A stretch of 64,000 bases of DNA from NCBI RefSeq assembly GCF_002736205.1, contig NZ_CP024091.1, positions 1,488,001 through 1,552,000 on the forward strand, in the 5' to 3' direction. Positions 6,344 to 30,258 of the stretch are shown here, piece by piece. The DNA is from Pedobacter ginsengisoli. GTDB taxonomy: Bacteria > Bacteroidota > Bacteroidia > Sphingobacteriales > Sphingobacteriaceae. The translations under genes were made by a program, and so were the position numbers. A model generated the notes under the pieces. The model was not told the DNA's origin. It worked only from the letters and a program-made list of their open reading frames with translations, and did no database searches. Positions within the stretch are counted from its first letter, which is position 1, and every line of letters starts with the position of its first letter.

Positions 6344-6582
6344 ATGAGAAACGGTAATTGGTATTATGCAATTTAGTAATTTGAAATTCACTTTTCATAC
6401 TTAAAATCAAGAAGATGGTAATGTACAGAATTGCATTTTGCGAGAGCAGATTCTGGTCGCCTTTACCATATTTTATAAATGTAAAAGTCAGCAAAACAGT
6501 TAATTTTACTGATTTGTGTTTTAATTAATAATTAAATAAATGCTCTTGCTAGCTTTGCAGAAACATATTTGAATTAACAGGG

Positions 6583-6846: not shown

Positions 6847-7353
6847 TTAGGTCAATAGTTTTTCATACGCCAATCTGGAACTGCCTCTGAAAAATACTTC
6901 GCCACAATACACATATCCTGCTTTCTCAAAAACATGTTTCATTGCGCCATTATCAAAGTTAGTGTCGGCTTTAACGCTATTTATGTTGTTGTTTCGTGCA
7001 AAATCCTCTATATAGTTCAGCATCTTACCCGACAGTCCTTTCCTAAGATGATCTTCGGAAATTGCGACTCTGTGAAAAACTACAAAATTATCATCAGTTA
7101 ACCATTTTCCTTTTATTTCTGCATATGCAGGTTCATCATTGATTAGAATTGCGCAATATCCTGCTATGCTATCACCATCGGCTAGTACAAATCCAGCATC
7201 TTGTTCTATATCTTTTTCAACAATTTGAGGATTTGGATAACCGTCCTGCCATTGGTTACTTCCATCTTCTTTTCTGCGTTGAATTGCATTTTGTAAGATC
7301 ACCCATATTTGCGGTAAATCATTTAACGTTGCTTTTCTAAAAATGTATTCCAT
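6847..7353 (-). CDS. GNAT family N-acetyltransferase
   Basis: A 168-residue protein with the GNAT fold pattern: N-terminal FRKATLNDLPQIWVIL, central strand with AGYCAILINDEPAY, and the acetyl-CoA-binding motif A around residues 112-125 (VAISEDHLRKGLSGKMLNYIE fits the Q/RxxGxG/A loop loosely). The C-terminal ALEKAGY-like strand is seen as VFEKAGYVYCGEVFF. Such enzymes transfer an acetyl group from acetyl-CoA to an amine; the substrate cannot be told from sequence. It is a single cytoplasmic gene, divergent from the serine hydrolase at 7432. Confidence 0.85.
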   Translation of the reverse strand: MEYIFRKATLNDLPQIWVILQNAIQRRKEDGSNQWQDGYPNPQIVEKDIEQDAGFVLADGDSIAGYCAILINDEPAYAEIKGKWLTDDNFVVFHRVAISEDHLRKGLSGKMLNYIEDFARNNNINSVKADTNFDNGAMKHVFEKAGYVYCGEVFFRGSSRLAYEKLLT

Positions 7354-7431
7354 ATTGGTGCAAAGTTTACTAAATATATCCAGATGTAAGTGCAGAAAAT
7401 TTTATATTAGACTTACCAATTACAAACTCTC

Positions 7432-9120
7432 ATGAAAATCTCCAAAAAGAAGTTTATTGTCTTGCTTTTATGCTCGCTGATACCCTCAATAGGGGTATGT
7501 GCCCAGGTACTGCCAGATTCTGTCATGAAAAAAGTAGACGGTTTATTTGCGAAATGGAATACACCAAACACGCCAGGTTGCGTGATTGGAATTGTGCGTA
7601 ATGATTCGCTGATTTATGCAAAAGGCTATGGTTTGGCCAATATGGAGTATGGAATACCAAATACGCCCGAAACGATTTATCATATGGCATCTATTTCCAA
7701 GCAATTTACTGCTTATGCAATTGTTTTGCTGGCTCAACAGGGAAAACTAAAGTTAGATGATGATGTTCGTAAGTATCTTTCCTGGTTCCCGGATCTGAAA
7801 GAAAAAATAACGATCAGGCACCTGCTAAATCATACCAGTGGTGTCAGAGATCAGTGGCAATTGCTGGCGATATCGGGCACCAGACTTGACGATGTAATTA
7901 AACAGGAGCATATTGTTAAATTGCTTAGTAAGCAAAGGGCGTTAAACTTTAAACCTGGAGATCATTATACTTACTCAAACAGTGGTTTTACCATGCTGGC
8001 AGAAATTGTAAAATCTGTTACGGGCAAAACACTTAGACAGTTTACGGATTCTCTCATTTTTAAGCCTCTGGGTATGAGCAATACCCACTTTCATGATGAT
8101 TACACGGAGGTGGTGAAAAACCGATCATACTCATATTTTCCTCGTGAGGGTGGTGGTTTTGGTAATAGTGTTTTATCTTATTCTAATGTAGGAGCAACCA
8201 GTTTATTTACCAATGTGAATGATTTGTCGAAATGGTTGATAAACTTTTACAATCCTAAGGCGGGTACAGCAGAAGATATTAAATTATTGACGCAAAAAGG
8301 TAAGCTGAACAATGGTGTAGAATCATCATACGCATTGGGAATTGTTGTAAAAGAATTTAAAGGCTGGAGGCAGTACACCCATAATGGTGCCGATGCAGGC
8401 TACAGAACATTCGCGACTAGCTTTCCTGATCTGAAAATGGGCTTTATTATTTTTAGCAATGTTGGAGATTTTGATATCGGCCGAAAGGGTGATGAATTAG
8501 TTAGTCTTTTTGTTAAAGATATCACCAAAAAAGTAAATAACACTGTTGCATTGGTAATTGACACCAGTAAGGCGGTTTTAGACGATGTAGCAAGGGCTGC
8601 AAAATTCTCTGGTAATTATATTGCTGATGATGGCACCCAGTTTAATTTTAAATTAGACTATCAGAAACTATATTGGGAAAGGTATGGGCATACCGATCTT
8701 TTGTTAAAAGCGGGAAAAGATACTTTTATGGTAGCTGATGCGCCCAATGTTAAGTTTCTGTTTGATATAGCAAGCAGCAAAGAAACCCAGGTAAAACAAT
8801 GGTGGCCAGACGGAAAACGTTCTTTGTTAAAGTATTCACCAACTGCCAACCTTACAGATAAGCAATTGCAAGCCTACGCAGGTACTTATTATTGCCCTGA
8901 GCTGGATTGTAAATATGGTATTGTGCTAAAAGGTAAAGATTTGATACTGACCAATAGCAAGTATGAGGATACTAAGCTACAGCTTATTGGAATGGATCAT
9001 CTGCGCAGTAATTTCTGGTGGATGGGTCATTTGAAGGTATTACGTGACAATAAAAATCAGATCGCAGGTTTTGAAGTCAATGATGGCAGGGTAATGCATT
9101 TGAGGTTTAATAAAATATAA
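7432..9120 (+). CDS. Serine hydrolase, class C beta-lactamase/D-alanyl-D-alanine peptidase fold
   Basis: A 562-residue exported protein with a signal peptide ending near VCAQ (residue 25). The beta-lactamase/PBP4-like domain (residues about 30-370) has the three catalytic motifs: SISK with nucleophile Ser87 and Lys90, YSN at 181-183, and HNG in QYTHNGADAG near residue 318. A C-terminal 180-residue beta-rich region (YxGxY repeats such as FSGNYIADDGTQF and YAGTYYCPELDCKY) is the lipocalin-like domain often attached to this family in Bacteroidota. It probably hydrolyses peptides or esters in the periplasm. A role in beta-lactam resistance is not implied. It is convergent with the next gene, with only 7 bases between the stops. 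Confidence 0.9.
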   Translation: MKISKKKFIVLLLCSLIPSIGVCAQVLPDSVMKKVDGLFAKWNTPNTPGCVIGIVRNDSLIYAKGYGLANMEYGIPNTPETIYHMASISKQFTAYAIVLLAQQGKLKLDDDVRKYLSWFPDLKEKITIRHLLNHTSGVRDQWQLLAISGTRLDDVIKQEHIVKLLSKQRALNFKPGDHYTYSNSGFTMLAEIVKSVTGKTLRQFTDSLIFKPLGMSNTHFHDDYTEVVKNRSYSYFPREGGGFGNSVLSYSNVGATSLFTNVNDLSKWLINFYNPKAGTAEDIKLLTQKGKLNNGVESSYALGIVVKEFKGWRQYTHNGADAGYRTFATSFPDLKMGFIIFSNVGDFDIGRKGDELVSLFVKDITKKVNNTVALVIDTSKAVLDDVARAAKFSGNYIADDGTQFNFKLDYQKLYWERYGHTDLLLKAGKDTFMVADAPNVKFLFDIASSKETQVKQWWPDGKRSLLKYSPTANLTDKQLQAYAGTYYCPELDCKYGIVLKGKDLILTNSKYEDTKLQLIGMDHLRSNFWWMGHLKVLRDNKNQIAGFEVNDGRVMHLRFNKI

Positions 9121-9146
9121 CACCCCCCTAAAATGTTGGAGGTGTT
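9119..9146. terminator. Possible shared hairpin between convergent genes
   Basis: AACACC at 9119-9124 can pair with GGTGTT at 9141-9146, with further C/G bases inside the stem and a loop of about ten. It overlaps both gene ends and has no long T-run, so it is a weak candidate for a bidirectional terminator. Confidence 0.25.
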
Positions 9147-10066
9147 GGTTTAAGGTCAGAATCAAGAAAGTCATTGATCATTGGTATTATCCAATTCATG
9201 TGTTGCATCATGCCAATATGGGTTGTGCCTGGTATAATGGCTAGTCGGGATTTAGGCACCCCATGTATATCACCCATTTTGCCTCCGCCTTTGGCGCGAA
9301 ATAGCTCTAATGCGTGTTCATGTCGAACTCCATCAGCATCACCAATAGCCATAAATATTGGAGCTTTTATATTTTTTACTTCTTTTGACCAGTCATAAGG
9401 CTTAAGATCTATACTGAGAACCTTTTTTACATACTGCGGAAAAAGTTTAGGGTCGTTGCCCAGACTGTCATATTGTTTTTCAATAGGAGAACCTTTGAAC
9501 ATATCTGCAGTCATAGTAGCAAAACTTGCCTCTACATCTGGCCACCATCCATCATGTTTATATGTGCCCGACAAAATTATAAGTCGTCGAACCTGCTCAG
9601 GATGGCGCACAGCAACCTGAAAGGCCACTCCGCCACCCATGCTGTATCCTAAAATGTCTACACTATCTATTTTGAGGTGCTTAAGTAAGCCAGAAACATC
9701 ATCCGCCATATTTTCGTAGCTAAACTCTCTCGGTATATCCTTTGTACGACCATGACCTTGCATTTCTGCCACAATTACTTTCCTGTTTTTGGCAAACTGG
9801 GGTATAATGTGCGACCAGTTTAAAGGGATATTCATAAATGAGCCATGTAGCAATACCAGTGGTTTACCACTTCCGTAGACTTCGTAATACATTTTTAATC
9901 CGTTTACATCTGCATAGCCGCTGTCATCTGGTTTAATTTTTTGGTCGGCACCATTTTCTTTTACTTCTTTTGAAATGGTTTGCCCGTCTTTACTGGAGGG
10001 TTGGCAAGATGCAACTGCCACTATAATTGTAGCAATTGCGAGATAAGTTATTATGTGCTTTTTCAT
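9128..10066 (-). CDS. Alpha/beta hydrolase, predicted lipoprotein
   Basis: A 312-residue protein starting at the ATG at 10066. Sixteen in-frame codons upstream are left out because this Met begins a lipoprotein signal (MKKHIITYLAIATIIVAVAS followed by the lipobox Cys). The hydrolase core shows the oxyanion strand VLLHGSF, the nucleophile elbow GYSMGGG, an acid in IGDADG and a catalytic His in PGTTHIGMM. This resembles the haloperoxidase/epoxide-hydrolase-like group of exported alpha/beta hydrolases. The substrate is unknown. It should be anchored in an envelope membrane after lipid modification of the Cys. Confidence 0.87.
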   Translation of the reverse strand: MKKHIITYLAIATIIVAVASCQPSSKDGQTISKEVKENGADQKIKPDDSGYADVNGLKMYYEVYGSGKPLVLLHGSFMNIPLNWSHIIPQFAKNRKVIVAEMQGHGRTKDIPREFSYENMADDVSGLLKHLKIDSVDILGYSMGGGVAFQVAVRHPEQVRRLIILSGTYKHDGWWPDVEASFATMTADMFKGSPIEKQYDSLGNDPKLFPQYVKKVLSIDLKPYDWSKEVKNIKAPIFMAIGDADGVRHEHALELFRAKGGGKMGDIHGVPKSRLAIIPGTTHIGMMQHMNWIIPMINDFLDSDLKPTPPTF

Positions 10067-11163: not shown

Positions 11164-11619
11164 ATGAAAAAGTTAACGCTCAGGATCCTTACAGTTGCTT
11201 TACTGCTATTTCTCTCTTTTACCAAACTTTCTGCGCAAAACACAAATTCTACTTCGTTTTAAGGTGTTTGGGAACTAACTCAATTGGCATCAAACAATTC
11301 CGAAACCCGTGGAGTAGTTCCGGGAATATTAAAAGTTTTTGAGGCTGGCGGTAAGTTTTTTAATCTGCGTGTTACTCAATCTGGATCTTTAATAAACCAT
11401 AAGGGTAACTATGTAGTTAACGATGCTGATACCTATTCTGAAATAATTAAAAACGAAGCAGATGATGTTAAATATTCCTTAGCCGGAAAGACCTATAAAC
11501 TGAGGTATAAGTTTAGCGATGATAAAATGTTACTCGTTTTAAAAGGAATGTTGGAAGGAAAAGAAGGGGTTAAAAGTGTTGAGTTTACAGAAGTATGGAA
11601 AAGGGTAAGTACGAAATAA
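11164..11619 (+). pseudogene. DUF4488-like exported protein interrupted by an in-frame TAA
   Basis: From the ATG at 11164 the frame reads a signal peptide (MKKLTLRILTVALLLFLSFT, ending near KLSAQ), then NTNSTSF and a TAA at 11260-11262. The same frame continues immediately as GVWELTQLAS and runs another 118 codons to a stop at 11617-11619, ending in FTEVWKRV. The 'GVWEL' start and 'WKRV' end fit the DUF4488 beta-barrel-like family of small exported Bacteroidota proteins. A single C-to-T change (CAA to TAA) explains the break. The downstream part could still start at TTG 11284 but would lack a signal peptide. A sequencing error is the alternative. Confidence 0.6.
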
Positions 11620-11647
11620 CTTAATGTAAAAAGAAAATATATAATAG

Positions 11648-11700
11648 TTATTTGACAATGAGCAGGTTGGTTGTAAATCTATTTATGAGGTAGATTTATT
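11648..11700 (+). promoter_or_regulatory. Conserved promoter region of the patatin-led unit
   Basis: TTATTTGACAATG (11648-11660), CAGGTTG (11663-11669) and TAGATTTATT (11691-11700) all recur upstream of the membrane-protein gene at 18848. TAGATTTA differs from the Bacteroidota -7 consensus TAnnTTTG only at its last base, and it lies 23 bases before the ATG at 11724. CAGGTTG is 21 bases upstream of it, close to the expected -33 spacing. Confidence 0.5.
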
Positions 11701-11723
11701 ATAAATCATCTTAATCTCTCAGT

Positions 11724-14585
11724 ATGAAACTATTCAAGCTGCTCTCTCTTGTAGCAATTGCCGGTTTGTTGGTTACTGGAAGTATGACCAGTAGAAATCA
11801 TCATCTGCTTTTTTCAGATAGTGCCCATGCGGGCATTCTGTCTCTGGAACTTACCAGATCTAACAGTGTTCAGTATAAGATTTTTTCGGAATGGAACCGG
11901 CCACAGAACTATGTGTTTGTGCGAGATTGGACAAATCCTGAAGATTCAATAATGGTAACTGATACCATGACGCCTGGCAGTAAAGCTAAATATAGTGAGC
12001 CGGGGCTGAAGATTAAGGGGGTAGACGCTGCAGAAAGACAAACTCATGCCGACTATTGGTTTATTCTTTTTTATGTGTTTGGTCTGATTTTACTGTTCTG
12101 GCATTATCATCAGAATATCTACCCTTCAAAAGACAGAATTAAAAACTGGCAGTTCTGGCTGTTTTCGGGAGCTGTGGTGTTAAGTGGTTTGTTGGATTTT
12201 ATTGAAAATCACTATATTCTTGAATCTATAGATCTTTTTAATAGATTAAACCCACAAAATCCATCTCCCGATAACCTCAGCGAGTTTGTAGAATCAGGTG
12301 TAGCAGAAAATGTTTTTTACCCGGCATTGTTTAAATGCATACTGCTAGCCGGCACACTGTTTGGTTTTGCCTGGAGTATTAGCTTTTTTAAACGGATAAC
12401 AGGTTGGCTTTCTGGTTTATCTGGCAATTTTTTATTTGGTTTACGTTTAGGGTGGACCTTCAGAATTGTACTGATGGTACTTTTTGTTTTGTTCGGTTTT
12501 TTAATCCTTTCTGATCAGGGACAGGACTTGCTGATTACCATTAATACTTCATCATTTGGAACCATCATCTTTCTATTTTCTACCTCGGTTTTAGCGGCAC
12601 TGAACTGGTATTTGCCTAAACTGTATGCCGGTGGCTTTACTGATTTGCTGCTAAAAGTGCCAAAGGGCTTTCTGATACCCGAAAAAAATTCGGTTGATTA
12701 TGCCCGTCTGCTAGGTGTGCTTACATTTTTAATTCCGGCCGTAGGCATACTCAAAACAATGCAACAGTATCATATGCCTTATCTTTTAGATGATGTTCCG
12801 GTAATGGTAATATTGCTTGTTACGCTGGTTAGTTATCAGCAGATATTAAAATATAATTCGCTGGATTCCTTTTTTGCTCCCCGGGGTGTGTTTTCATCTT
12901 TTAGGTATTGGATGGTTATGGCTTTGTTTTTTTGCCTGATGATGATTTTCCCGTATATTAAAGATAATGATGTGGAGCAGCATGGGCGCATTTCTTACCT
13001 TGCTCTTGACCTGTTCTTATTATCCTTCGCTTTCCTTATTTCTGTAACCTACCGTACAAAAATTGCGCTTGTGCAGAATATTGAGGTTGCAAAAGTTGTA
13101 CTTATTGCCGGCTTGTTGCTGGCACTTGTATTTATTCTTTTTAACATACCACCAATACTCTTTGCACTTACGGCTAAGTTTAGGTTTTTTACGCTGGCCA
13201 TTGCTATTGCCGCCTTAATCTGTTATGCGTTAATATTCTCTTACCTGCTTGTTTTAGGAAAACGGACCAAAGTGCAATGGATCACATTTATTTTGCTTGT
13301 AGGTTTTATAGTTTCTTATATGAAAATGAGCGATTTTCATAAGGTGCATACTGTTATAGCTAAAGGCAATGATCCAGTTTCATTAGAAACTCATATAGGC
13401 AATTGGCTTAAGCATAGACGCGCGGAGATTGCAGCGTACAAGGCAATTCACAACAGGCCATATCCTGTGTTTTTTGTAAATTCTTACGGAGGCGGGATAA
13501 GGGCCTCGGTATGGGCAACAATGGTGGTTGGCGAATTGGATTTACGTGTTCTTACCTTAAAAGGCAGTAACCGGATTAGTAATGATTTTCAGCACCATGT
13601 ATTTTCTTTTTCGGGGGCATCTGGTGGAACTATAGGTTTTTCTCTTTTATCGGCAGATAGACTTAACGTAAAGGATAGTATTGCATCAGCTAAACTTTCT
13701 CCTGATAGCACCAGGGTTTATAAGTACGATTATCTTACGGCAAATGTAGTGGGGATTTTTGGAAGAGATGTGTTTATGACCGTGATTGGGGGCAATTGGT
13801 ATGATGATCGCTCACGCTTACAGGAGAGGGGCTTTGAAGGCGTATTGTGTGATAAGTTTGGAATGGATTATAGTGTTCCGTTAAGAGAGGCATGGAAAAA
13901 AGAAAACTTAGACTTACCTCTGCTTTTCTCTAATACCTATGATATTAATACGGGTAAGAAGGGTATTGTGGCTCCGGTGCTGTTAAATAAGACTGATTTT
14001 CCAGGTTGTGTTTTTATACAGGATCTGATGAAGGCAGAGAAGCTTGATCTGCCACTTTCTGCTGCTGCTTTCTTGAGTGCGCGTTTTCCATATGTATGCC
14101 CGACAGGAAAATTTGATGAGAAACATCATTTTACGGATGGTGGAACGCTTGAAAATTCCGGCGCAGAAACTTCGAGACAGGTGATTACAGTATTTGAACG
14201 GGTACTTGCTAAACCGGAGTTTGCTGATCTTGCCGTTAGCATAAATATTCTTTCAATTTCTAATAGTATACTGACTGTTGAGTATCCTACCCAGGATAGG
14301 AATTTGTATGAGGTAGTGGCGCCGGCATTGGGAATTTTGCAGACCATAAGTAGTAATGCACTTAGGGCCGATACCATTAACAGTGTGATTGCTGCGCAAA
14401 ATAAAATGAAAAACTGGAGCTACAATAAAATTCAGCCTACACGGGAAATGATTGCGAAAAATTGGCCTGTATTGCCATTAGGTTGGCAAATATCAGACGA
14501 AGCGCTGGAGGTAATGAAAAAGAGTTTACACGATCAGAAGGCTAAGATTGATACTGTATTACTTGCTTTTGGCACTAAATATTAA
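11724..14585 (+). CDS. Polytopic membrane protein with C-terminal patatin-like phospholipase domain
   Basis: A 953-residue protein. An N-terminal hydrophobic helix (residues 4-22) is followed by a hydrophilic stretch of about 85 residues, likely outside the cytoplasm. Then come roughly eleven to twelve membrane helices between residues 112 and 535. The last 400 residues form a patatin-like hydrolase with the oxyanion loop GGGIR (589-593), nucleophile elbow GASGG (Ser633) and the catalytic Asp in DGG (Asp805), in the order the family requires. Patatins cleave acyl chains from phospholipids, so the likely target is the cell's own or a foreign membrane. The domain order suggests a sensor and membrane anchor wired to a lipase. 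It is the first gene of a unit with 20, 2 and -8 base spacings to the next three. Fusion of a patatin to so many helices is uncommon. Confidence 0.85.
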   Translation: MKLFKLLSLVAIAGLLVTGSMTSRNHHLLFSDSAHAGILSLELTRSNSVQYKIFSEWNRPQNYVFVRDWTNPEDSIMVTDTMTPGSKAKYSEPGLKIKGVDAAERQTHADYWFILFYVFGLILLFWHYHQNIYPSKDRIKNWQFWLFSGAVVLSGLLDFIENHYILESIDLFNRLNPQNPSPDNLSEFVESGVAENVFYPALFKCILLAGTLFGFAWSISFFKRITGWLSGLSGNFLFGLRLGWTFRIVLMVLFVLFGFLILSDQGQDLLITINTSSFGTIIFLFSTSVLAALNWYLPKLYAGGFTDLLLKVPKGFLIPEKNSVDYARLLGVLTFLIPAVGILKTMQQYHMPYLLDDVPVMVILLVTLVSYQQILKYNSLDSFFAPRGVFSSFRYWMVMALFFCLMMIFPYIKDNDVEQHGRISYLALDLFLLSFAFLISVTYRTKIALVQNIEVAKVVLIAGLLLALVFILFNIPPILFALTAKFRFFTLAIAIAALICYALIFSYLLVLGKRTKVQWITFILLVGFIVSYMKMSDFHKVHTVIAKGNDPVSLETHIGNWLKHRRAEIAAYKAIHNRPYPVFFVNSYGGGIRASVWATMVVGELDLRVLTLKGSNRISNDFQHHVFSFSGASGGTIGFSLLSADRLNVKDSIASAKLSPDSTRVYKYDYLTANVVGIFGRDVFMTVIGGNWYDDRSRLQERGFEGVLCDKFGMDYSVPLREAWKKENLDLPLLFSNTYDINTGKKGIVAPVLLNKTDFPGCVFIQDLMKAEKLDLPLSAAAFLSARFPYVCPTGKFDEKHHFTDGGTLENSGAETSRQVITVFERVLAKPEFADLAVSINILSISNSILTVEYPTQDRNLYEVVAPALGILQTISSNALRADTINSVIAAQNKMKNWSYNKIQPTREMIAKNWPVLPLGWQISDEALEVMKKSLHDQKAKIDTVLLAFGTKY

Positions 14586-14605
14586 CCATTAATATATCTC
14601 ATGTT

Positions 14606-16090
14606 ATGACTGCGCTATCTAAATTAAACTATGTAAATGTTGGTAAACACGGCACTTTTTCTCCAACCGGAAACCAGCTTTTTGACACCACCTCGGCTGA
14701 TGTAGACAAGATTTTTGAATCGCTAAAAGATGGCGATCGTTTGTTGCTTTATTTTCATGGAGGCCTGGTTAATATAAAAAGCGGAATGGATACTGCTGAA
14801 CGTATTACGCGATATGTAACTACGGGTACGCAATCGCATCCGGTAAGTTTTGTATGGGAAACCGGCCTGATAGAAACATTAACGCAGAACCTTGATGTAA
14901 TATGGAGTTCTGAATTTTTTAAGCGTTTGCTGGTAAAAGTAATTAAGGTTGCCGGAAAGAACCTGGGAATTGATGTGAAAGGCTTGGATGGAAGTAAGGG
15001 TGTAGGAGGAATGAGGGATGAGGAGATTTGGGACCAACTGAAACGGGCTGAACCTTTTGAGGATACAGTAGAGGTTACGGGTAAGCGATCTGTATCACTA
15101 AAATGGGTTGGAGATGATGATTTAGATGAGCTGGATGATATTATTGGCAAAGAGATTAAGGCAGATATGGAGGAAGAGATTGAGAGCGACCAACTGTTGA
15201 TTGATGCCGCAACGGCTGAGAAACCACCATTGGAGGCAGATTTGATGCGCAATACTATTGCCGGAACTAAAACCCAGGGCGAAAAAGGAATTTTAAGCCT
15301 TGCCAAGCTGATTACTGCTGCTGTAAAGATTGTGGTTGCAGTGGTTAGGAGGTATATGAAAAAAAGAAATCATGATTTTTATCCCACTGTTGTAGAGGAG
15401 ATATTCAGGGAGATTTATATTGCTGATATAGGCACTTTATTGTGGGGGTTGATGCAAGCCAAAGCTAAGGATATGTGGAAAGAGGATAGTTTTACAGGAA
15501 ATCCGGAAGGCTACCATGCCGGAAGCTATTTTTTAAAGAAGATCATAGATTTTCAGGCTACCGGAGCTAAGCTTACTATCGATTTGGTTGGGCACTCGGC
15601 CGGATCTATTGCCATATGTGAGCTGGTAGATGCGGTGGTGAAAAGGAAAATGGATATTAAGTTCAGACACGTGATTTTCATGGCACCGGCATGCAGGTGC
15701 GAACTTTTCGCCGACACTTTATTGAAAAACAGGGGCATAATGGAAGATTTCAGAATCTTCACCATGTCGGATGAGTATGAGAAAAAAGATCATCTGGTTC
15801 CCGTAATCTATCCAAGGTCTTTGCTGTATCTAATCTCAGGCATACTTGAAAAGGATAGTTTTGATGCCTATGTGCTGGGCTTACAAAGGCATATTACGGG
15901 AAGGGTACCATATGATAATGAGGAGGTATTAAATAACATTAAGGCTTTTGTAGAGGAAAAGGGGCATGTAGTTTACGCTGTTACTGAGCCTGGTGCGGCT
16001 GAGGGACACATTTCTGGCTCAACGAAACATGGGAATTTTGATAACGATAAGGAGACCACGTTGGATAGTATAGTTAGTATAATTAAATAG
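14606..16090 (+). CDS. Alpha/beta hydrolase (lipase-like) of the multi-hydrolase operon
   Basis: A 494-residue cytoplasmic protein with no signal peptide or membrane helix. An early oxyanion strand LLLYFHGGLVN (His51-Gly53) and a late nucleophile elbow LVGHSAGSIA (Ser331) mark an alpha/beta hydrolase with a long insert (residues about 130-270, strongly acidic around 170-200). Candidate acid and base are Asp residues in FTMSDEYEKKD and the His in STKHGNFDND near the C-terminus. The combination of HGG and GHSAG suggests an esterase, lipase or thioesterase-type activity. It starts 20 bases after the patatin gene and ends 2 bases before the caspase gene, so it is almost certainly co-transcribed. 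I know no named family that covers its full length. Confidence 0.75.
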   Translation: MTALSKLNYVNVGKHGTFSPTGNQLFDTTSADVDKIFESLKDGDRLLLYFHGGLVNIKSGMDTAERITRYVTTGTQSHPVSFVWETGLIETLTQNLDVIWSSEFFKRLLVKVIKVAGKNLGIDVKGLDGSKGVGGMRDEEIWDQLKRAEPFEDTVEVTGKRSVSLKWVGDDDLDELDDIIGKEIKADMEEEIESDQLLIDAATAEKPPLEADLMRNTIAGTKTQGEKGILSLAKLITAAVKIVVAVVRRYMKKRNHDFYPTVVEEIFREIYIADIGTLLWGLMQAKAKDMWKEDSFTGNPEGYHAGSYFLKKIIDFQATGAKLTIDLVGHSAGSIAICELVDAVVKRKMDIKFRHVIFMAPACRCELFADTLLKNRGIMEDFRIFTMSDEYEKKDHLVPVIYPRSLLYLISGILEKDSFDAYVLGLQRHITGRVPYDNEEVLNNIKAFVEEKGHVVYAVTEPGAAEGHISGSTKHGNFDNDKETTLDSIVSIIK

Positions 16091-16092
16091 TT

Positions 16093-17121
16093 ATGGCCAA
16101 TGATCTTGATTTTGCGGTTGTTATAGGCGTTGAATATTACCAGCAAAACACGCCATTAGGCGGTCCGCATAGCGATACCGAGAAGTTTATGGATTGGTTG
16201 CTTGATCCTAACGGCGGAGGTTTGCCTCGGGATGCTACTGACCCTAAAAGTAGCCCGAATGTATTGAAGCTGCTCTCTACACCAACATATACGCCACGGA
16301 AGGATGATCTTGACCTTTGGCTTGATGAGAAGATGAATGGCATTGTTAAAGGCAACCAGGGTGCCCGCAGGTTTTACTTCTATTTTTCGGGACACGGCAT
16401 TGGGGTAACTCAGAAGAATTCGGCTTTGCTATTTCCACTATGGACCAGAACTAACAGGAATTATGCACTGTCGTCTGAAAAATACCTTGATGAACTCCTT
16501 AAAAAAGGGATTTTTAAGGAAATCTATTTCTTTATGGATTGTTGTCGCAATAGAATTGCCGGTGTTGAAGGCCTTGCGCCAACCTGGAGCTCTCCGCTGC
16601 CTGCAAGTGGTGCTGTAGATTATTTGCTTTATTATGCAACGGAATTTGATACAGCAGCGTTTGAAAAACCGGTGATAGGTCAGGAAGAAGGGCTGAACAA
16701 TGGTTTGCCACGCGGGCTTTTTACTGAGGTATTGATAAATGGTTTGAGAGGCGCAGCGGCGGGAAGGAATGGGAAGCTGAGTATTGGAAATCTGTTGTCG
16801 TATGTTAAACTAAAGTTACCTGAGCTGGCAAGTGCCCATAATGAAACACAGATACCTAAAGCGATGCTTTCGCTGGATCCGGATCATGAGATTTGCGGGC
16901 CTTTTCAGAAAAAAATTGCGGTTACCATAACTTTTAAGGTACCTGGTGGTAAAGTGATTCTTGAAGATGCTGATCTGGAGGTTGTTTTGGAAGAGGATAC
17001 GGCTGTAGGTTTCTGGAACCTGAACCTGAGTAGAGGACAGTATTTTCTGAGAGCAGAAGGCCAGCAGGAAGGAATGAAAATTTTTGTTGATGGCATTACT
17101 AACCAATACGTTTATGGCTAA
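16093..17121 (+). CDS. Caspase family (peptidase C14-like) protease
   Basis: A 342-residue protein. Residues 5-240 follow the caspase/metacaspase fold: opening strand FAVVIGVEYY, a helix with SDTEKFMDWLL, the catalytic His in YFYFSGHGIG (His101) and the catalytic Cys in IYFFMDCCRN (Cys150/151; by alignment to DxCHSG the second Cys is the likely nucleophile). The usual His after that Cys is replaced by Arg. A late segment GLFTEVLINGLRG fits the closing part of the domain. Residues about 255-342 look like a small beta-sandwich. There is no signal peptide, so it should act in the cytoplasm, and prokaryotic caspases often execute cell death or activate partner enzymes. It overlaps the next gene by 8 bases, implying translational coupling. 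Confidence 0.88.
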   Translation: MANDLDFAVVIGVEYYQQNTPLGGPHSDTEKFMDWLLDPNGGGLPRDATDPKSSPNVLKLLSTPTYTPRKDDLDLWLDEKMNGIVKGNQGARRFYFYFSGHGIGVTQKNSALLFPLWTRTNRNYALSSEKYLDELLKKGIFKEIYFFMDCCRNRIAGVEGLAPTWSSPLPASGAVDYLLYYATEFDTAAFEKPVIGQEEGLNNGLPRGLFTEVLINGLRGAAAGRNGKLSIGNLLSYVKLKLPELASAHNETQIPKAMLSLDPDHEICGPFQKKIAVTITFKVPGGKVILEDADLEVVLEEDTAVGFWNLNLSRGQYFLRAEGQQEGMKIFVDGITNQYVYG

Positions 17122-18736
17122 GAAAATTTCAAAGGCAGCTAATTATGCGCGTTTTTCTTTTCAGATTCAAAATAGGGCGCTTGCACCTTTTACTCATTTA
17201 AAGCTTTTTAATGGGTATAATGAAGAGGTGGGCAAATGCTATGGCGATATGGATATGGAGATTCCACAGGGTCTTTATCAGCTCAGGATAGAGATGAATG
17301 ATTTTGTGGAGGATAGAAATTACAGGGTGGAAGCTGGTAGTCAAGTTAATGATGAAATAATTGATTTTAAACTGAACTCTGCCATTCCTGTTTATGGTTT
17401 TAGTTCAACGCACGAATATTTCTCTAACCCGGCTGAGGAGTGGAGCAGAAAATCATCGGTAACAGGTTTAGGAGTAAGCGGTAGTTCCCTGTTTTTGTTT
17501 TTGAGCTATTCTGAAGAGGATAAGCCATTTGATATGGGTTTTATTGAAGCTGGATATTTCTCTCTGCTGGATGCGGACAGAAAACTTAAATACAGGTTAA
17601 GGATTGATCGTGTTAAACTGGAAACAGGGAGAAATGAGAATGCCGGAGTATTTTTTGCTTCAGTGTGCTTTACTGATGAGATGAGCGCTGGTCAGTATTA
17701 TCTGATATATCGAAGCCCTGATCTGAAACGTGAAATTCCGGTTTATGTTTATCAGGACTGGCAAACACAGGTTTTTATCAGGGTTAGAGATTTCCCAATC
17801 TTTGCCAGTACAAGGATTTCGCTTTCGAAGAATGGTTTCATGAGAAATGATGAAGACATGCTACAGCTTGATGCAATGATCTCGAAATTGCACAATGGAA
17901 TGTACGTGCTTCCGGCCAACCTTATGGTTAATGATGTGAATGGAAAATGGGAAAATCCCATGCTGGGTATTATGGCATGTTACATGTTTCTGTTATCAGA
18001 CATTACTGATGGAAATTACCTTTACCTTAAGATGTTGACTAGTTTGGAAGCTTCGATTGTAAATATTCATGAATCGCCGGATATGGCAGCCCTGAGGTTA
18101 ATGGGAGCTGTTTTATTCAACAGTGCTATTCCTGAGGAGCCGCTTTCTGCCCCTTGCATGCTTGCTGTTGGTCTTAATGTATTTTTAAAACAATCTATGG
18201 CATACCCACATTTGATTGAAGCAGATGGTTTGGTTGAAAAGATATTTCCACGTTTGGTAAAAGAGTCTGTTTATACCATGTATGAGCCCTTGCCGCAAAC
18301 ATTTTTTGTAGTAAACGAAAAGGTAGAAAATACGGTAAAGAAAATTACAAAGGGAATTAAATTTATAGATAAACTGGCTAAAGGAGTGAGCTGGCTTATT
18401 CAGAGAAACAGGGTGCCCACTATGGCCGGAGCAGCCCCTATCTCTGTTCCATCTGTAACAACAGCAGTGGAGGCAACTGATGATTGGGTAAGTTCATCGA
18501 TTATAAGTCAGCTTTCGCATATTTCTACTGATCCTGATCAGCTTGATATTGCGGCAATTGCACAGCAGTTGCAGGTTACTACAAATACAGTAAAGAAAAC
18601 GCTTGGTGTATTGAAGGAAAAAGGGGCAATAAAAGAGCTTGGATCTGCAGTGCTTGAACATGTAGATAAAAAAGAATTGAGGCAGGCAGTTGCGGATATA
18701 AGTGCTAAGATTGATACACTGCTTAAAGATGAGTAG
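17114..18736 (+). CDS. Caspase-partner protein with beta domains, helical core and C-terminal winged-helix-like domain
   Basis: A 540-residue protein that I do not recognise as a named family. I chose the ATG at 17114, which sits in the end of the caspase gene as ATGGCTAA; the frame opens earlier at 17084. Three parts can be seen. Residues 1-250 are beta-rich (YQLRIEMND, YFSLLDADR, YYLIYRSPD). Residues about 265-400 are helical, with WENPMLGIMACYMFLL, a pattern that I recall from proteins near bacterial caspase and CHAT genes. The C-terminus holds a winged helix-turn-helix-like segment (LDIAAIAQQLQVTTNTVKKT, then a wing-like LKEKGAIKEL) and a final helix. It may be an adaptor or regulator of the protease, or a DNA-binding autoregulator. 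Both are inference. Confidence 0.65.
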   Translation: MAKKISKAANYARFSFQIQNRALAPFTHLKLFNGYNEEVGKCYGDMDMEIPQGLYQLRIEMNDFVEDRNYRVEAGSQVNDEIIDFKLNSAIPVYGFSSTHEYFSNPAEEWSRKSSVTGLGVSGSSLFLFLSYSEEDKPFDMGFIEAGYFSLLDADRKLKYRLRIDRVKLETGRNENAGVFFASVCFTDEMSAGQYYLIYRSPDLKREIPVYVYQDWQTQVFIRVRDFPIFASTRISLSKNGFMRNDEDMLQLDAMISKLHNGMYVLPANLMVNDVNGKWENPMLGIMACYMFLLSDITDGNYLYLKMLTSLEASIVNIHESPDMAALRLMGAVLFNSAIPEEPLSAPCMLAVGLNVFLKQSMAYPHLIEADGLVEKIFPRLVKESVYTMYEPLPQTFFVVNEKVENTVKKITKGIKFIDKLAKGVSWLIQRNRVPTMAGAAPISVPSVTTAVEATDDWVSSSIISQLSHISTDPDQLDIAAIAQQLQVTTNTVKKTLGVLKEKGAIKELGSAVLEHVDKKELRQAVADISAKIDTLLKDE

Positions 18737-18749
18737 TTCCCTATAGGTG

Positions 18750-18822
18750 TTATTTGACAATGTATAATACTTATATGGGAACGAACAGGTTGATAATAAG
18801 TTGTTTATAAGTTAAATTTATT
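18750..18822 (+). promoter_or_regulatory. Second copy of the conserved promoter region
   Basis: TTATTTGACAATG (18750-18762), CAGGTTG (18786-18792) and TAAATTTATT (18813-18822) repeat the blocks found at 11648-11700. Here about 20 extra bases separate the first two blocks. The last block lies 25 bases before the ATG at 18848, and the CAGGTTG-to-TAnATTTATT gap is 20 bases, against 21 in the first copy. It is likely the start of the second transcription unit of the same system. Confidence 0.5.
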
Positions 18823-18847
18823 TAATCAATATCTAATTATCATTCTT

Positions 18848-20005
18848 ATGTTTGGATCTAACACGCTTGAAATTGCCATTGGCATTATCCTTCTGTTTTT
18901 CCTGGTTAGTACATTGTGTACCGCAATACGAGAAGGCATTGAGGCAAAACTAAAAACCAGGGCTGCTTATCTGGAGCAGGGTATCAGAGAATTGTTAAAT
19001 GATTTTACCGGGACGGGAATGGCTAAGAGCCTCTATGATCATCCACTGATTTCGGGACTATTTAATGGTGCCTATAAGACATTGGCGAAAGGGGACGAAA
19101 CAACACTGAAACGGCCTGATTTGCTAGCTGGTGGAAAGGACCTGCCTTCTTACATTCCTTCTAAAAACTTTGCAAGAGCTCTTATGGATATCGCGACCAG
19201 AGGGAAGGATATGGGAGCCGTAAATTTAAATGAACCATCGAATACAATAACAATAGATAATATCCGCAATAATATTTCTAATCTGGGTAATCCTCAAATA
19301 GAACGCGCTATACTAAATGCACTGGATCTTGCCCAGGGAGATCTTCTAGCAGCTGAAACAAATATCGAGAACTGGTTTAACAGTTCTATGGACAGGATTT
19401 CGGGCTGGTATAAAAGATCTACTCAGTGGATAGTTTTTTGGATTGCGCTTTCTGTTGCAGTTGTTATGAATATCAACGTGTTTACTGTTGTTGATTATTT
19501 ATCTAAGAACGATACTTCACGGAAAATGCTGGTACAGCGTGCGGGCGTGCTTACTAAAGATTCGACAATGCTTAAGATGGATTACATAGAGGCAGACAAA
19601 GCGCTTAAAGATCTTAAGCTGCCAATAGGTTGGTCAAATGATGACTCGTACAGGATCAATCATACTGAAAGAAGTGGTATTTGGAACAATTTTTTGGGGC
19701 CGGTGCTGGGATGGCTTATTACTGCTCTGGCAGCTACCATGGGGGCTCCTTACTGGTTCGATTTGCTAAATAAGTTTATGGTAATCCGATCAACAGTAAA
19801 ACCTAATGAAAAGAGTGGGGAAGAGCCATCTCAGGATTTGAAAGGAAAGAAAAGCGATATTGTTTTTGTTACGCCACCACCAAATTCACCGACTAATTCA
19901 GTAATGGATAATGCTGAAAATGAACTTGACTGCTGTAGTGAGCCCTTTAATGAAGATACACCTGACCAGGAATTACCTGTTGCGAAAGGAGGTGTTGCGT
20001 TATGA
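18848..20005 (+). CDS. Three-helix membrane protein of the multi-hydrolase module
   Basis: A 385-residue protein with an N-terminal helix (residues 8-25, IAIGIILLFFLVSTLCTAI), a long soluble region rich in helices (27-190), a second helix at about 193-217 (WIVFWIALSVAVVMNINVF), a short loop domain and a third helix at about 283-303 (LGWLITALAATMG). The C-terminal tail is hydrophilic and acidic. The opening 'helix, then AIREGIEAKLKTRAAYLEQGI' resembles a widespread uncharacterised membrane family. Its stop overlaps the amidase start as ATGA, so the two are probably made together. With the amidase lacking a signal peptide, a pore or holin-like export role is possible but unproven. Confidence 0.65.
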   Translation: MFGSNTLEIAIGIILLFFLVSTLCTAIREGIEAKLKTRAAYLEQGIRELLNDFTGTGMAKSLYDHPLISGLFNGAYKTLAKGDETTLKRPDLLAGGKDLPSYIPSKNFARALMDIATRGKDMGAVNLNEPSNTITIDNIRNNISNLGNPQIERAILNALDLAQGDLLAAETNIENWFNSSMDRISGWYKRSTQWIVFWIALSVAVVMNINVFTVVDYLSKNDTSRKMLVQRAGVLTKDSTMLKMDYIEADKALKDLKLPIGWSNDDSYRINHTERSGIWNNFLGPVLGWLITALAATMGAPYWFDLLNKFMVIRSTVKPNEKSGEEPSQDLKGKKSDIVFVTPPPNSPTNSVMDNAENELDCCSEPFNEDTPDQELPVAKGGVAL

Positions 20006-20796
20006 GCTTTTCATTAACATGGTTACCTACAGTACTTTTAGACGCTGGTTTGAAAGTTGCAGAATGCCCTGGATGGGCAAATTTAGGCAGGTCGGAAATG
20101 GGAACTGTTGAAGGTGTACTTTGCCACCATACTGCCACAACTATTAGAAGCGGAAATATGCCCTCGCTGAACACCATTATTCATGGAAGATCTGGAAGGG
20201 ATGCATTACCTGGCCCTCTAGCTCAGCTGGGCCTTGGCAGGGATGGTACTTATTATATCATTGCAGCTGGAAAGTGTAACCATGCCGGAGCTGGGATATG
20301 GAAAGGCATTACAGCCGGAAACACTCATTTTATTGGTATTGAAGCAGAAAATATTGGAGATGGAAGTGAACCATGGCCAGAGATCCAGTTGGATGCTTAT
20401 GCCAGGGGTGTTGCGGCAATATTAAAACATATTAACAGGGGTGTAGAATTTTGCGCCGGACATAAGGAATACCGTTTACCACCAGGCACCAAGAATGATC
20501 CTAATTTTGATATGAATGATTTTAGGAGGAGGGTTCAGGATATAATGGACGGGAGGTCGGCTCCCGTTGTCATTCCAAAAGAAGAGCCTGCAGGATTAAT
20601 TAGACAGACTTTGCGACGAGGCAAAGCAAATGATGCTGAGCTGGTAAAGATAGTTCAGGGAAAGTTGGGCTTAACTGTGGATGGCTTTTTTGGCCCTATT
20701 ACAGAAGCAGCTGTCAGGGAATTCCAGCGTGGCAAAGGCCTGGTTGCAGATGGTATAATAGGACCGAAAAGCTGGGCAGTACTGGATACGTTATAA
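20002..20796 (+). CDS. N-acetylmuramoyl-L-alanine amidase with peptidoglycan-binding domain
   Basis: A 264-residue protein. Residues about 30-180 are an amidase_2 (T7 lysozyme/AmpD-type) zinc enzyme: first His pair in VLCHHTAT (42/43), a conserved Glu in FIGIEAEN (115), second ligand His154 in AGHKEYRLPPGTKNDPNFD and the Asp166 ligand in KNDPNFD. It cleaves the bond between muramic acid and the stem peptide. Residues about 200-264 form a PG_binding_1 domain (VKIVQGKLGLTVDGFFGPIT, FQRGKGLVADGIIG). There is no signal peptide or lipobox, as in phage endolysins or recycling AmpD, but no phage gene is near. It is coupled to the preceding membrane-protein gene by a 4-base overlap and is the last gene of the module. 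Confidence 0.9.
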   Translation: MSFSLTWLPTVLLDAGLKVAECPGWANLGRSEMGTVEGVLCHHTATTIRSGNMPSLNTIIHGRSGRDALPGPLAQLGLGRDGTYYIIAAGKCNHAGAGIWKGITAGNTHFIGIEAENIGDGSEPWPEIQLDAYARGVAAILKHINRGVEFCAGHKEYRLPPGTKNDPNFDMNDFRRRVQDIMDGRSAPVVIPKEEPAGLIRQTLRRGKANDAELVKIVQGKLGLTVDGFFGPITEAAVREFQRGKGLVADGIIGPKSWAVLDTL

Positions 20797-20826: not shown

Positions 20827-20907
20827 TTGCTGTGATTTTTGATACTAATTTTTTAGATAGGTCTCGTACATTTGGAGCTAACCAAAACTTTTACGGAGGA
20901 TCTAAAC

Positions 20908-23385
20908 TTGAGAATTTATTTAAGAACCGCATTACTTATTTTTTTACTATTACCTGTTTTAGCTAAAAGTCAATCGTCTGTTAATAATCAATTGTTAATG
21001 TGGTATGATAAACCTGCCGGTATATGGGAGGAAGCATTGCCTTTAGGAAATGGAAATACAGGTGCAATGGTGTTTGGTGGAATCGAGAAAGAAAGGTACC
21101 AGCTAAACGATAATACTTTATGGTCTGGCTATCCTAAGGATGGGAATAATCCGCAGGCAGCTTCATTATTACCAGAGCTCAGACAGTTCATTTTTAAAGG
21201 CGATTACGCCGGTGCTGAACAAACATGGCGCAAGATGCAAGGTCCTTATTCTGCACGTTACTTACCACTTGGTGATTTATGGTTAGATTTTGGTCATAAA
21301 GAAAAGGATGTAACGGCATATTCCCGAAATTTAGATTTAAAAACAGCAGTGGCTTCGGTTAAATATACGTTTGACAATGTGGTGTATAGCCGTTCTACCT
21401 TTATTAACCATCCATCAAAAATAATGGTGGTTGTTATTAAAGCGAGCAAGAAGGGAATGCTGAATTTAAAAGCTGCTTTAAGTAGTAAACTTAAATACAA
21501 GACCCATGCAGATGGTGAGAAACTGGTATTAAAAGGGCGTGCCCCGAAGTATGTTGCAGCAAGAAACTATTTTCCTGAGCAAGTGGTATATGATGAAAAT
21601 GAAGGGTTAAGTTTTGAAGTTCAGGTAAAGCTTGCGGTAAAGGGTAGTAAAGCTAAAATTCTGAGCACTGATAGCTTATTGGAAGTAAGCGAGGCTGATG
21701 AAGTAAAGTTATATCTTACTGAGGCTACCAGTTTTAATGGTTTCGATAAATCACCTGCTAAGCAGGTGAGGAATCCTTCAGAGAAGAACAATGCAAATTT
21801 AGCTAAGGCAATCAAAAAAGGAGCGGATTTTTTGAAAGACGAGCATATAAAGGATTATACCTCATTGTTTAACAGGGTTTCTTTTGAATTGAAAGGTTCA
21901 AAAGATTACACTACACTACCTGTTAATGAGCGCTTAAAGCAATTTACAACTAATCCTTCTGATTTGGGGTTGCAGGCCCTTTATTATCAATTTGGGCGTT
22001 ATTTGCTAATTGCAAGTTCCAGGCCAGGTGGTAGGCCTACGAATTTGCAAGGATTATGGAATGACCACGTACAACCACCTTGGGGGAGCAATTATACCAT
22101 TAATATTAACACTGAAATGAACTATTGGCTGGCAGAAAACAGTAATCTATCTGAATGCCATATCCCGCTGTTTGATTTTATAGGGGAGTTGGCTGTAAAT
22201 GGGGCCAAAACAGCTAAAATAAATTATGGTATTCAGGAGGGCTGGGTTGCCCATCACAATTCTGACCTGTGGGCAAAGACTTCACCGGTTGGAGACTATG
22301 ATCAGGATAAAACGTATTACCCTGGTGCTTTTTGCTGGCAAATGGGTGGGGCATGGCTTAGCACTCACTTGTGGGAGCATTTTCTTTATACCAGAGATCA
22401 GAACTTTTTAAAAGATAAAGCTTATCCTTTGATGAAGGGAGCCGCTCAATTCATGTTGCAGTGGTTGGTTAAAGATCCTGAAACTGGGTTCCTAGTAACT
22501 GCTCCATCTACTTCGCCAGAGAATGTATTTAAAGATGGAGGTAAAACTTACAATATAAGCAAGGCCTCAACAATGGATATTTCTATAGTTCGTCAGCTAT
22601 TTCAGGATGTAATTGGTGCCTCTGAGGCTTTGAATGAGGATATGGCTTTTCGAAACGAGCTGAAGCAGGCACTTGCCTCTTTATATCCTTACCATATAGG
22701 GAAGTACGGACAGATACAGGAATGGTTTAATGATGTTGATGACCCTAAAGACATGCACAGGCATATTTCCCATCTGTATGGTTTATTTCCTGGGAATCAG
22801 ATAAGTCCTGAACGTACTAAGGATCTTGCTGAGGCAGCTAAAGTTACTTTAAAACATAGGGGTGATGTAAGTACAGGATGGAGTATGGCCTGGAAGATGA
22901 ATTGGTGGGCAAGACTGAGAGATGGAGAACATGCTTATAAAATTTTAGCAAAAGCCTTTAATTATATCAATCCAAACGATAAGACCTTTAAAAGTGCAGG
23001 AGGCGGAGGTACTTATCCGAATCTTTTTGATGCGCATCCACCCTTTCAGATTGATGGAAATTTTGGAGCAACAGCCGGAATTACAGAAATGTTAATGCAA
23101 AGCCATGAAGGAAAAATATCGTTGCTGCCGGCTTTACCTTCTGAATGGCGGGATGGTACAATAAAAGGAATAAAAGCAAGGGGGAACTTTGAATTGGAGA
23201 TGGTTTGGGAAAAAGGTAAGCTAAAACAGGCAAAGATTAAGTCTGTTAAAGGAGGTATTTGTAAAGTTGAGGCACCTGAATTGCTAAAGGTAAAGGAACT
23301 TTCTAACTCTAATCAAGTAGCAGAAGGAAAAGTGTTATCCTTTAATACTCAAAAGGGAAAGGTGTATACATTGATTTTGAATTAA
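20908..23385 (+). CDS. Glycoside hydrolase family 95 alpha-L-fucosidase
   Basis: An exported enzyme of about 825 residues. The preferred start is TTG at 20908, seven bases after a clear GGAGGA (20895-20900), which gives a compact signal peptide (RIYLRTALLIFLLLPVLAKS). The frame opens at another TTG, 20872, and no ATG is available. The N-terminus LLMWYDKPAGIWEEALPLGNG is diagnostic for GH95. Catalytic positions by family alignment are Asn399 and Asn401 (ININTEMNYW), general acid Glu538 (STSPENVF) and Asp716 (IDGNFGATAG). GH95 enzymes invert alpha-1,2-L-fucosyl linkages, though some members act on L-galactosides. It lies 7 kb from the GH29/SusCD operon and shares a putative operator with it. 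A strong hairpin follows. Confidence 0.93.
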   Translation: MRIYLRTALLIFLLLPVLAKSQSSVNNQLLMWYDKPAGIWEEALPLGNGNTGAMVFGGIEKERYQLNDNTLWSGYPKDGNNPQAASLLPELRQFIFKGDYAGAEQTWRKMQGPYSARYLPLGDLWLDFGHKEKDVTAYSRNLDLKTAVASVKYTFDNVVYSRSTFINHPSKIMVVVIKASKKGMLNLKAALSSKLKYKTHADGEKLVLKGRAPKYVAARNYFPEQVVYDENEGLSFEVQVKLAVKGSKAKILSTDSLLEVSEADEVKLYLTEATSFNGFDKSPAKQVRNPSEKNNANLAKAIKKGADFLKDEHIKDYTSLFNRVSFELKGSKDYTTLPVNERLKQFTTNPSDLGLQALYYQFGRYLLIASSRPGGRPTNLQGLWNDHVQPPWGSNYTININTEMNYWLAENSNLSECHIPLFDFIGELAVNGAKTAKINYGIQEGWVAHHNSDLWAKTSPVGDYDQDKTYYPGAFCWQMGGAWLSTHLWEHFLYTRDQNFLKDKAYPLMKGAAQFMLQWLVKDPETGFLVTAPSTSPENVFKDGGKTYNISKASTMDISIVRQLFQDVIGASEALNEDMAFRNELKQALASLYPYHIGKYGQIQEWFNDVDDPKDMHRHISHLYGLFPGNQISPERTKDLAEAAKVTLKHRGDVSTGWSMAWKMNWWARLRDGEHAYKILAKAFNYINPNDKTFKSAGGGGTYPNLFDAHPPFQIDGNFGATAGITEMLMQSHEGKISLLPALPSEWRDGTIKGIKARGNFELEMVWEKGKLKQAKIKSVKGGICKVEAPELLKVKELSNSNQVAEGKVLSFNTQKGKVYTLILN

Positions 23386-30222: not shown

Positions 30223-30258
30223 AATCAATTAAAGGTGTGAAAATACTCCTTTAGTTTT

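Follow-up and report, generated by a model that had tools for sequence, protein, structure and literature searches.

A conserved hydrolase-caspase-partner trio at a Pedobacter ginsengisoli locus probably includes a caspase-activated, lipase-like hydrolase

Six neighboring genes on one strand of the Pedobacter ginsengisoli genome encode a patatin-like membrane protein, an alpha/beta-hydrolase, a caspase, a partner of the caspase, a second membrane protein, and a peptidoglycan amidase. Do they form one system, as the initial annotation of this locus proposed? The window, meaning the whole stretch of 64,000 nucleotides that was analyzed, spans positions 1488001-1552000 in a complete genome of 5.37 Mb. 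The six same-strand open reading frames were found in it as first described, with gaps of 20, 2, -8, 111, and -4 bases when the ATG at 17114 is taken as the start of the partner:

11724..14585, + strand: optional gene, membrane protein with a C-terminal patatin-like domain (Ser633, Asp805; membrane segments by inspection)
14606..16090, + strand: core gene 1, lipase-type alpha/beta-hydrolase of 494 aa (Ser331, His475; insertion at ~ 118-258)
16093..17121, + strand: core gene 2, paracaspase-like caspase (His101/Cys151; acidic Asp28, Asp149, Glu191)
17114..18736, + strand: core gene 3, partner (predicted Ig/CnaB-like beta-sandwiches and a C-terminal helical, wHTH-like domain)
18848..20005, + strand: optional gene, membrane protein that opens the membrane-amidase pair (membrane segments by inspection)
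20002..20796, + strand: optional gene, amidase with Amidase_2 and PG_binding_1 (Pfam; no signal peptide evident by inspection)

A residue check of the window's proteins confirmed the catalytic motifs claimed for four of them. The patatin carries GASGG with Ser633 and DGG at 805; the hydrolase has GHSAG with Ser331, along with His475 and FHGG at 50; the caspase has SGHG at 99 and DCCR at 149 (Cys151); and His154 is present in the amidase, which matched the Pfam families Amidase_2 and PG_binding_1. The caspase was recognized by Pfam (E 1.4e-9) and by the PADLOC caspase model PDLC02987 (E 9.7e-12), and the five non-caspase genes had no PADLOC model match below E 0.005. Pfam offered nothing stronger than a weak match to DUF7379/DUF900 for the hydrolase, and no family match at E 1 for the patatin or the membrane protein. 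Promoter and terminator scans did not return more sites than were found in shuffled sequence.

We scanned one genome per species across 84,980 species with peptide patterns taken from the hydrolase alignment (the GHSAG and FHGGLV stretches), with confirmation by tblastn. This yielded 120 hydrolase relatives, the best 80 of which were kept for locus work. Profile searches of stop-to-stop frames at these loci found hydrolase, caspase, and partner in that order on one strand in 74 of the 80. Among the six exceptions, two (L106 and L129) run into contig ends and four (L083, L110, L123, and L138) hold a solitary hydrolase; at L125, the trio order is kept with the genes broken by frameshifts. Caspase and partner are fused into one protein at 7 of the 74 trio loci, three of which are near-copies. 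At 38 of the 74, the flanks are free of same-strand ORFs of at least 60 aa for 150 bases in both directions; for ORFs of at least 120 aa, this holds at 47. The conserved unit is the trio, and the six genes are not one conserved system: the trio alone was kept, with the patatin, membrane protein, and amidase outside it. The check for recurrence of all six genes found instead that the membrane protein and amidase are an independent pair elsewhere, adjoining each other with no trio alongside in G101 (L062) and in Pinibacter (L153). These two genes are a separate pair, and the patatin is optional.

The trio is widely and unevenly distributed. An early partner search also found it in genomes of the same phylum (L011, L012, and L013) and on rhizobial plasmids; as a single-sequence query in the first genome scan, the partner gave no matches. 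The three proteins co-diverge across 69 loci, with r of 0.92, 0.89, and 0.90 (permutations gave at most 0.10). This analysis and the hydrolase tree drew on 69 of 81 loci (the window plus 80); 12 were set aside, namely L091, L136, and L137 for their split partner matches, L143 and L144 as near-copies, L125, and the six loci that lack a complete trio. Nine phylum labels occur in the tree, and Pseudomonadota requires four or more changes on its starred branches, although repeated changes do not by themselves prove transfer. Among the genomes of the genus, 4 of 145 had a hydrolase match, one of them (G641) solely as a C1-peptidase fusion, and 3 of 145 had the trio. The corresponding numbers in the phylum sample were 5 of 395, including two fusions without the trio, and 3 of 395. 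A patchy, widely shared trio suits a transferable accessory function.

As for what this function is, we consider it likely that the caspase cuts the lipase-like hydrolase at as many as three conserved basic sites and thereby activates it, which would enable an attack on the cell's own membrane. The candidate sites, K131/G132, R161/S162, and K227/G228, have the form (K/R)-(G/S/A) and lie in a variable insertion of the hydrolase (~ residues 118-258):

14957..15379, + strand: segment encoding the hydrolase insertion (residues 118-258), with three predicted caspase sites

K or R was found at positions 131, 161, and 227 in 77/78, 61/78, and 78/78 caspase-linked hydrolases, respectively, counts from which L125 and the contig-end locus L106 were left out and in which near-copies stay. 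Site 161 was non-K/R or unaligned in 17 of the 78, including all six Streptomyces. The stricter form [AGS][KR][GSA] is matched by the window hydrolase at site 131 only and is absent from 4 of the 78 insertions. Both outer sites were present in 73/78 caspase-linked hydrolases versus 1/4 caspase-less ones (Fisher p 0.002, with kinship ignored and four controls). L127, L137, and three near-copies (L142-L144) make up the five caspase-linked hydrolases that do not have both. Of the four stand-alone hydrolases with no caspase, L083 has kept the two outer sites; L110, L123, and L138 retain GHS and HGxFD but have lost at least one of the two.

The insertion could instead be structural, its basic-small sites forming a docking surface or lid turn, with the caspase directed at other proteins and the hydrolase acting as an independent co-effector. 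The retention of the sites in L083, where no caspase adjoins, speaks for such a role, as do conserved positions within the insertion (such as Asp195, Leu145, and Pro150). So does L178, in which amidase, hydrolase, and caspase are joined in one chain and a single residue stands in place of the insertion; L178 does not fit the simplest form of caspase activation unless fusion substitutes for gating. We nevertheless find a structural role unlikely, given that both K and R occur at each of the three sites, and that the hydrolase model places these sites within or next to low-confidence loops (K131 borders a low-confidence block). The insertion is also absent from four hydrolases (L150, L151, L174, and L177) that follow a papain-type C1 peptidase in a single fusion protein, where 9-32 residues replace it between the matched parts.

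Activation by cutting at basic sites is also consistent with the residues of the caspase. Asp28, His101, Asp149, Cys151, Arg152, and Glu191 were invariant in 53/53 caspases. When a profile of the second half was built from 37 caspases, MALT1 chains were the best match (E 5.7e-5), whereas with the whole-domain profile metacaspases ranked first and MALT1 tenth. In the alignment, Asp149-x-Cys151-Arg152 is matched to DMCR of human MALT1 and Glu191 to the glutamate in its AFE motif; the first half aligns with metacaspases, where Asp28 coincides with the GxxND aspartate. We take Asp149, Cys151, and Glu191 as the putative counterparts of MALT1 Asp462, Cys464, and Glu500, in a chain numbering that is our own assignment, and Asp28 would, via the metacaspases, correspond to MALT1 Asp365. 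Acidic pocket residues of MALT1 have been held responsible for its P1 (arginine) specificity (PMC4357240). Because the invariant acidic residues align with this arginine pocket, the trio caspase is predicted to cut after K or R, which would fit the sites in the hydrolase.

The partner was modeled with beta-sandwiches at ~ 8-87 and 120-232, followed by a helical middle and a low-confidence linker at 412-455. Its N-terminal sandwich resembles CnaB/Ig-like folds, and the C-terminal domain of the caspase is homologous to this first sandwich and, more weakly, to the second (hhalign 96.8% and 88.4%, with a helical control at 0.25%). The partner had initially been described as winged-helix-like; helices at 458-538 do appear in the model (mean pLDDT 87.3), but the HTH matches were sub-threshold (best E 0.003). 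The C-terminal domains of its relatives vary and include trypsin, nuclease, PLD, Cpn60, and pYEATS.

These features resemble Canu (KaeCanABC), which likewise comprises three genes for a MALT1-like caspase, a partner, and a pro-effector with site-bearing insertions. According to the published account, CanA was obtained only with CanB, CanC is activated by the complex of the two, and defence was lost when either of the predicted cutting sites in CanC was mutated (PMC12799240). The Ig-like domain C-terminal to the Canu caspase may have a counterpart in the C-terminal domain of the trio caspase, which is homologous to the CnaB/Ig-like sandwich predicted for the partner. The effectors differ, that of Canu being an MBL-fold pro-nuclease with two gating insertions encoded downstream of the caspase, whereas the trio has an alpha/beta-hydrolase encoded upstream. 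Since its effector is an alpha/beta-hydrolase and not an MBL nuclease, we place the trio outside Canu. Phage protection by Canu is reported to need both active sites; the trio, by comparison, is known from sequence.

By analogy with the caspase-nuclease defence of Canu, we infer that the hydrolase is a caspase-activated lipase. The partner would form a complex with the caspase via their common domain, hold it or sense a signal, and then free it, the signal being perhaps infection or a similar assault. The freed caspase is predicted to cut the hydrolase insertion, removal of which would open the enzyme, and the lipase would then harm the cell membrane, with phospholipid as its putative substrate. 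A structure comparison gave likeness to PGAP1 and esterases, and a lipid substrate is a guess from this fold, because Foldseek showed no PDB match at E 0.001 among the matches listed. If true, caspase unlocking of a pro-effector would be a general design that extends beyond the nucleases of Canu, and the weapon here would be a lipase. Such activation would give an unnamed, widespread three-gene unit a testable mechanism and would be a bacterial counterpart of the membrane rupture set off by caspases.

Kaur et al. 2020 reported caspases paired with alpha/beta-hydrolases in VMAP systems and described both as effectors of GAP1-N1 systems (PMC7159879). The trio could be a branch of these VMAP/GAP1-type conflict systems, with MoxR-vWA or GTPase regulators encoded elsewhere. 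An alpha/beta-hydrolase gene is said there always to adjoin the VMAP-system caspase (PMC7159879), one adjoins the trio caspase at 74/80 of our loci, and the variable C-terminal domains of the partner look like the polymorphic effectors of both groups. In contrast to the VMAP ternary and GAP1-N1 systems as presented in that account, the trio stands alone, has another third protein, and lacks VMAP-C at the loci tested. VMAP-C (PF20028) occurred in 7 of the 18 genomes searched (17 with the trio) and, by coordinates, never inside the trio locus ranges (0/17 rows); ten VMAP-C sequences had no 40-mer in common with 7 trio loci; and the partners scanned gave no VMAP match. Membership in VMAP was rejected, and we regard a branch of this kind as improbable. 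Against the model for the EACC1-associated caspases of the same account (PMC7159879; NCBIfam NF047832), the trio caspase scored a weak 35.4 bits, far below the cut-off of 140.

Asplund-Samuelsson et al. 2012 had described Amidase_2-caspase proteins, one also with a lipase, and saw them as a destructive combination (PMC3501461). Those proteins are domain fusions with a GDSL lipase, and neither this hydrolase family nor the trio is among those given in the relevant part of that paper (PMC3501461). The hydrolase-caspase pairing (2020) and the amidase-lipase-caspase fusions (2012) are thus stated in earlier work. We found no description of the trio in the open-access literature that this comparison covered; relative to that literature, four features are apparently new, namely the occurrence of the trio as a stand-alone unit, the nature of its third protein, its wide spread, and the conserved cutting sites.

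An amidase and a lipase found together are reminiscent of injected wall and membrane effectors, and a DUF2235 protein lies close to L171, features that would suit an antibacterial lipase-amidase-protease set, secreted or injected against competitors. With no same-strand neighbor of at least 120 aa within 150 bases at 47 of the 74 trio loci, and no signal peptide evident by inspection in the three core proteins, this reading appears very improbable. A housekeeping pathway for lipid or lipoprotein maturation, which the PGAP1- and esterase-like fold might suggest, is scarcely credible for a trio present in just 3/145 genus and 3/395 phylum genomes and also borne on plasmids.

If the caspase does activate the hydrolase, the optional genes may add to its effect in this strain. 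The regions upstream of the two units in the window are related:

11633..11718, + strand: region preceding the patatin-trio unit; related to 18756-18841 and carrying the 14-mer GTTATTTGACAATG at 11647
18749..18841, + strand: region preceding the membrane-amidase pair; carrying the 14-mer GTTATTTGACAATG at 18749

The local score of 11633-11718 against 18756-18841 was 72; none of 500 shuffled pairs scored above 50, and the next best unrelated place in the window reached 36. The 14-mer has only these two exact copies in the genome; allowing at most one mismatch, there are 7 copies in all versus 4 for the reversed control. Since their upstream sequences are related, the patatin-trio and membrane-amidase units look co-regulated in this strain. 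Alternatively, the upstream repeats are marks of an old insertion. Upstream of the L062 and L153 pairs, similarity was not above that of shuffles.

The patatin has 32 relatives at E 0.001. Some are on Pedobacter contigs that are not represented among the best 120 of 961 hydrolases listed, and the patatin therefore seems trio-free there. In Pedobacter sp. GSP4, the patatin ACS5PU_07015 is beside the hydrolase ACS5PU_07010, judged from their close locus tags, and the partner matches listed included no protein from that contig. The patatin was also considered as a second caspase substrate and rejected, as the one [AGS][KR][GSA] match in the stretch that links its membrane part to its catalytic domain is unconserved in 32 sequences (the window's plus 31 of the 32 relatives).

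Peptidoglycan hydrolases adjoin hydrolase relatives at several loci: a CHAP protein in L075, a phage lysozyme in L171, and a homologue of the amidase in L174 (E 7e-89). Five peptidoglycan-hydrolase probes searched against the full stretch of sequence available for each of the 74 trio loci found a relative in L075 only. A peptidoglycan hydrolase beside trio-type genes is recurrent yet rare, and no rule. The initial proposal that a protease is coupled to lipid and wall hydrolases therefore holds in part: the related upstream sequences, the GSP4 patatin, the neighbors in L075, L171, and L174, and the L178 fusion favor it, though with these five probes a wall enzyme was seen at 1 of 74 trio loci.

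In this strain, the patatin of the same operon may serve as a second lipase that reinforces the trio, and the membrane protein and amidase, under related upstream control, might provide it with a wall enzyme. As the amidase has no evident signal peptide, it would reach the wall after the membrane is breached. These two overlapping genes might be comparable to a phage holin-endolysin lysis pair, in which a membrane protein would be combined with a cytosolic, endolysin-like amidase. More tentatively, and as something possible rather than probable, the whole could be an apoptosis-like, stand-alone device for lysis. Its MALT1-like caspase, kept in check by an Ig-type partner, would cut a pro-lipase at three sites, the inner membrane would open, and an endolysin-type amidase would reach the wall, the core occurring with swapped add-ons in at least nine phyla.

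Finally, we compared the genes adjoining the trio at 18 loci (up to 3 genes per side, 120-1200 aa) with one arbitrary control stretch per genome; L124 and L145 were left out, as their two genomes had no control stretch. The 103 trio-neighbor genes matched 77 PADLOC families, versus 13 for the 108 controls. However, each of the 25 families listed out of these 77 matches 2/103 genes, and 22 of the 25 are named PD-T4-6, so clear defence enrichment relative to the same-genome controls was not seen. The hydrolase had no match in phage records at E 1e-5. One viral contig was observed to carry the trio.

The combination of hydrolase, caspase and amidase that the initial annotation had placed within one six-gene module is found as a single chain in L178, a relative's locus in another genome (G527:C1, about 4438711-4439700). 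There, one protein of 963 aa (frame 448-3336, minus strand) carries Amidase_2, the trio-type hydrolase family and a caspase, and its hydrolase part has no variable insertion. The insertion is also missing from four further loci of relatives (L150, L151, L174 and L177), where the trio-type hydrolase is preceded in the same chain by a papain-type C1 peptidase. At L174, the gene before this fusion encodes a protein closely homologous to the amidase in the window. The partner was also observed in a fusion: in Bradyrhizobium (L134:5309-8815), it is joined to a Cpn60/TCP-1 chaperonin-like domain.

Further protease and peptidase-like genes lie beside or near the hydrolase-caspase-partner trio in other genomes. 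A second protease gene, encoding about 860 aa, directly adjoins it in three Bacteroidota (L075, L077 and L078); the L075 copy combines a caspase with a subtilase by Pfam, and the remaining two fall into its cluster. Mutually related proteins are encoded near the trio at L067, L070 and L086, the first two M19-dipeptidase-like by Pfam and the third placed by BLAST cluster only. At L086, a type I restriction subunit was also seen adjoining the hydrolase. In an Anaerolineae bin (L131), the trio has a protein of NACHT plus FGE-sulfatase type on each side (7129-9948 and 14550-17471).

All three genes were also observed on a contig classed as viral (L170, IMGVR_UViG_3300011630_000002). A plasmid-borne trio (L017) has putative Tn7-like transposition genes upstream (2505-6099) and putative ParB-like and helicase-like genes downstream (13351-17294), judging from their translations by inspection.

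Within the window, the sequences before the patatin gene (11633-11718) and before the membrane gene (18756-18841) are related, and the 14-mer GTTATTTGACAATG has exact copies in the genome only at window positions 11647 and 18749. Other genes in the window are:

230-6391, minus strand (opposite to the trio): bacterial alpha-2-macroglobulin, 2053 aa, a protease trap
11284-11619, plus strand: 111-aa ORF with a TTG start, ending 104 bases before the patatin gene
20872-23385, plus strand: GH95 glycoside hydrolase, on the amidase's strand and 75 bases behind it, probably unrelated
26194-30228, minus strand: hybrid two-component sensor with propeller repeats, 1344 aa, a type typical of glycan-use loci
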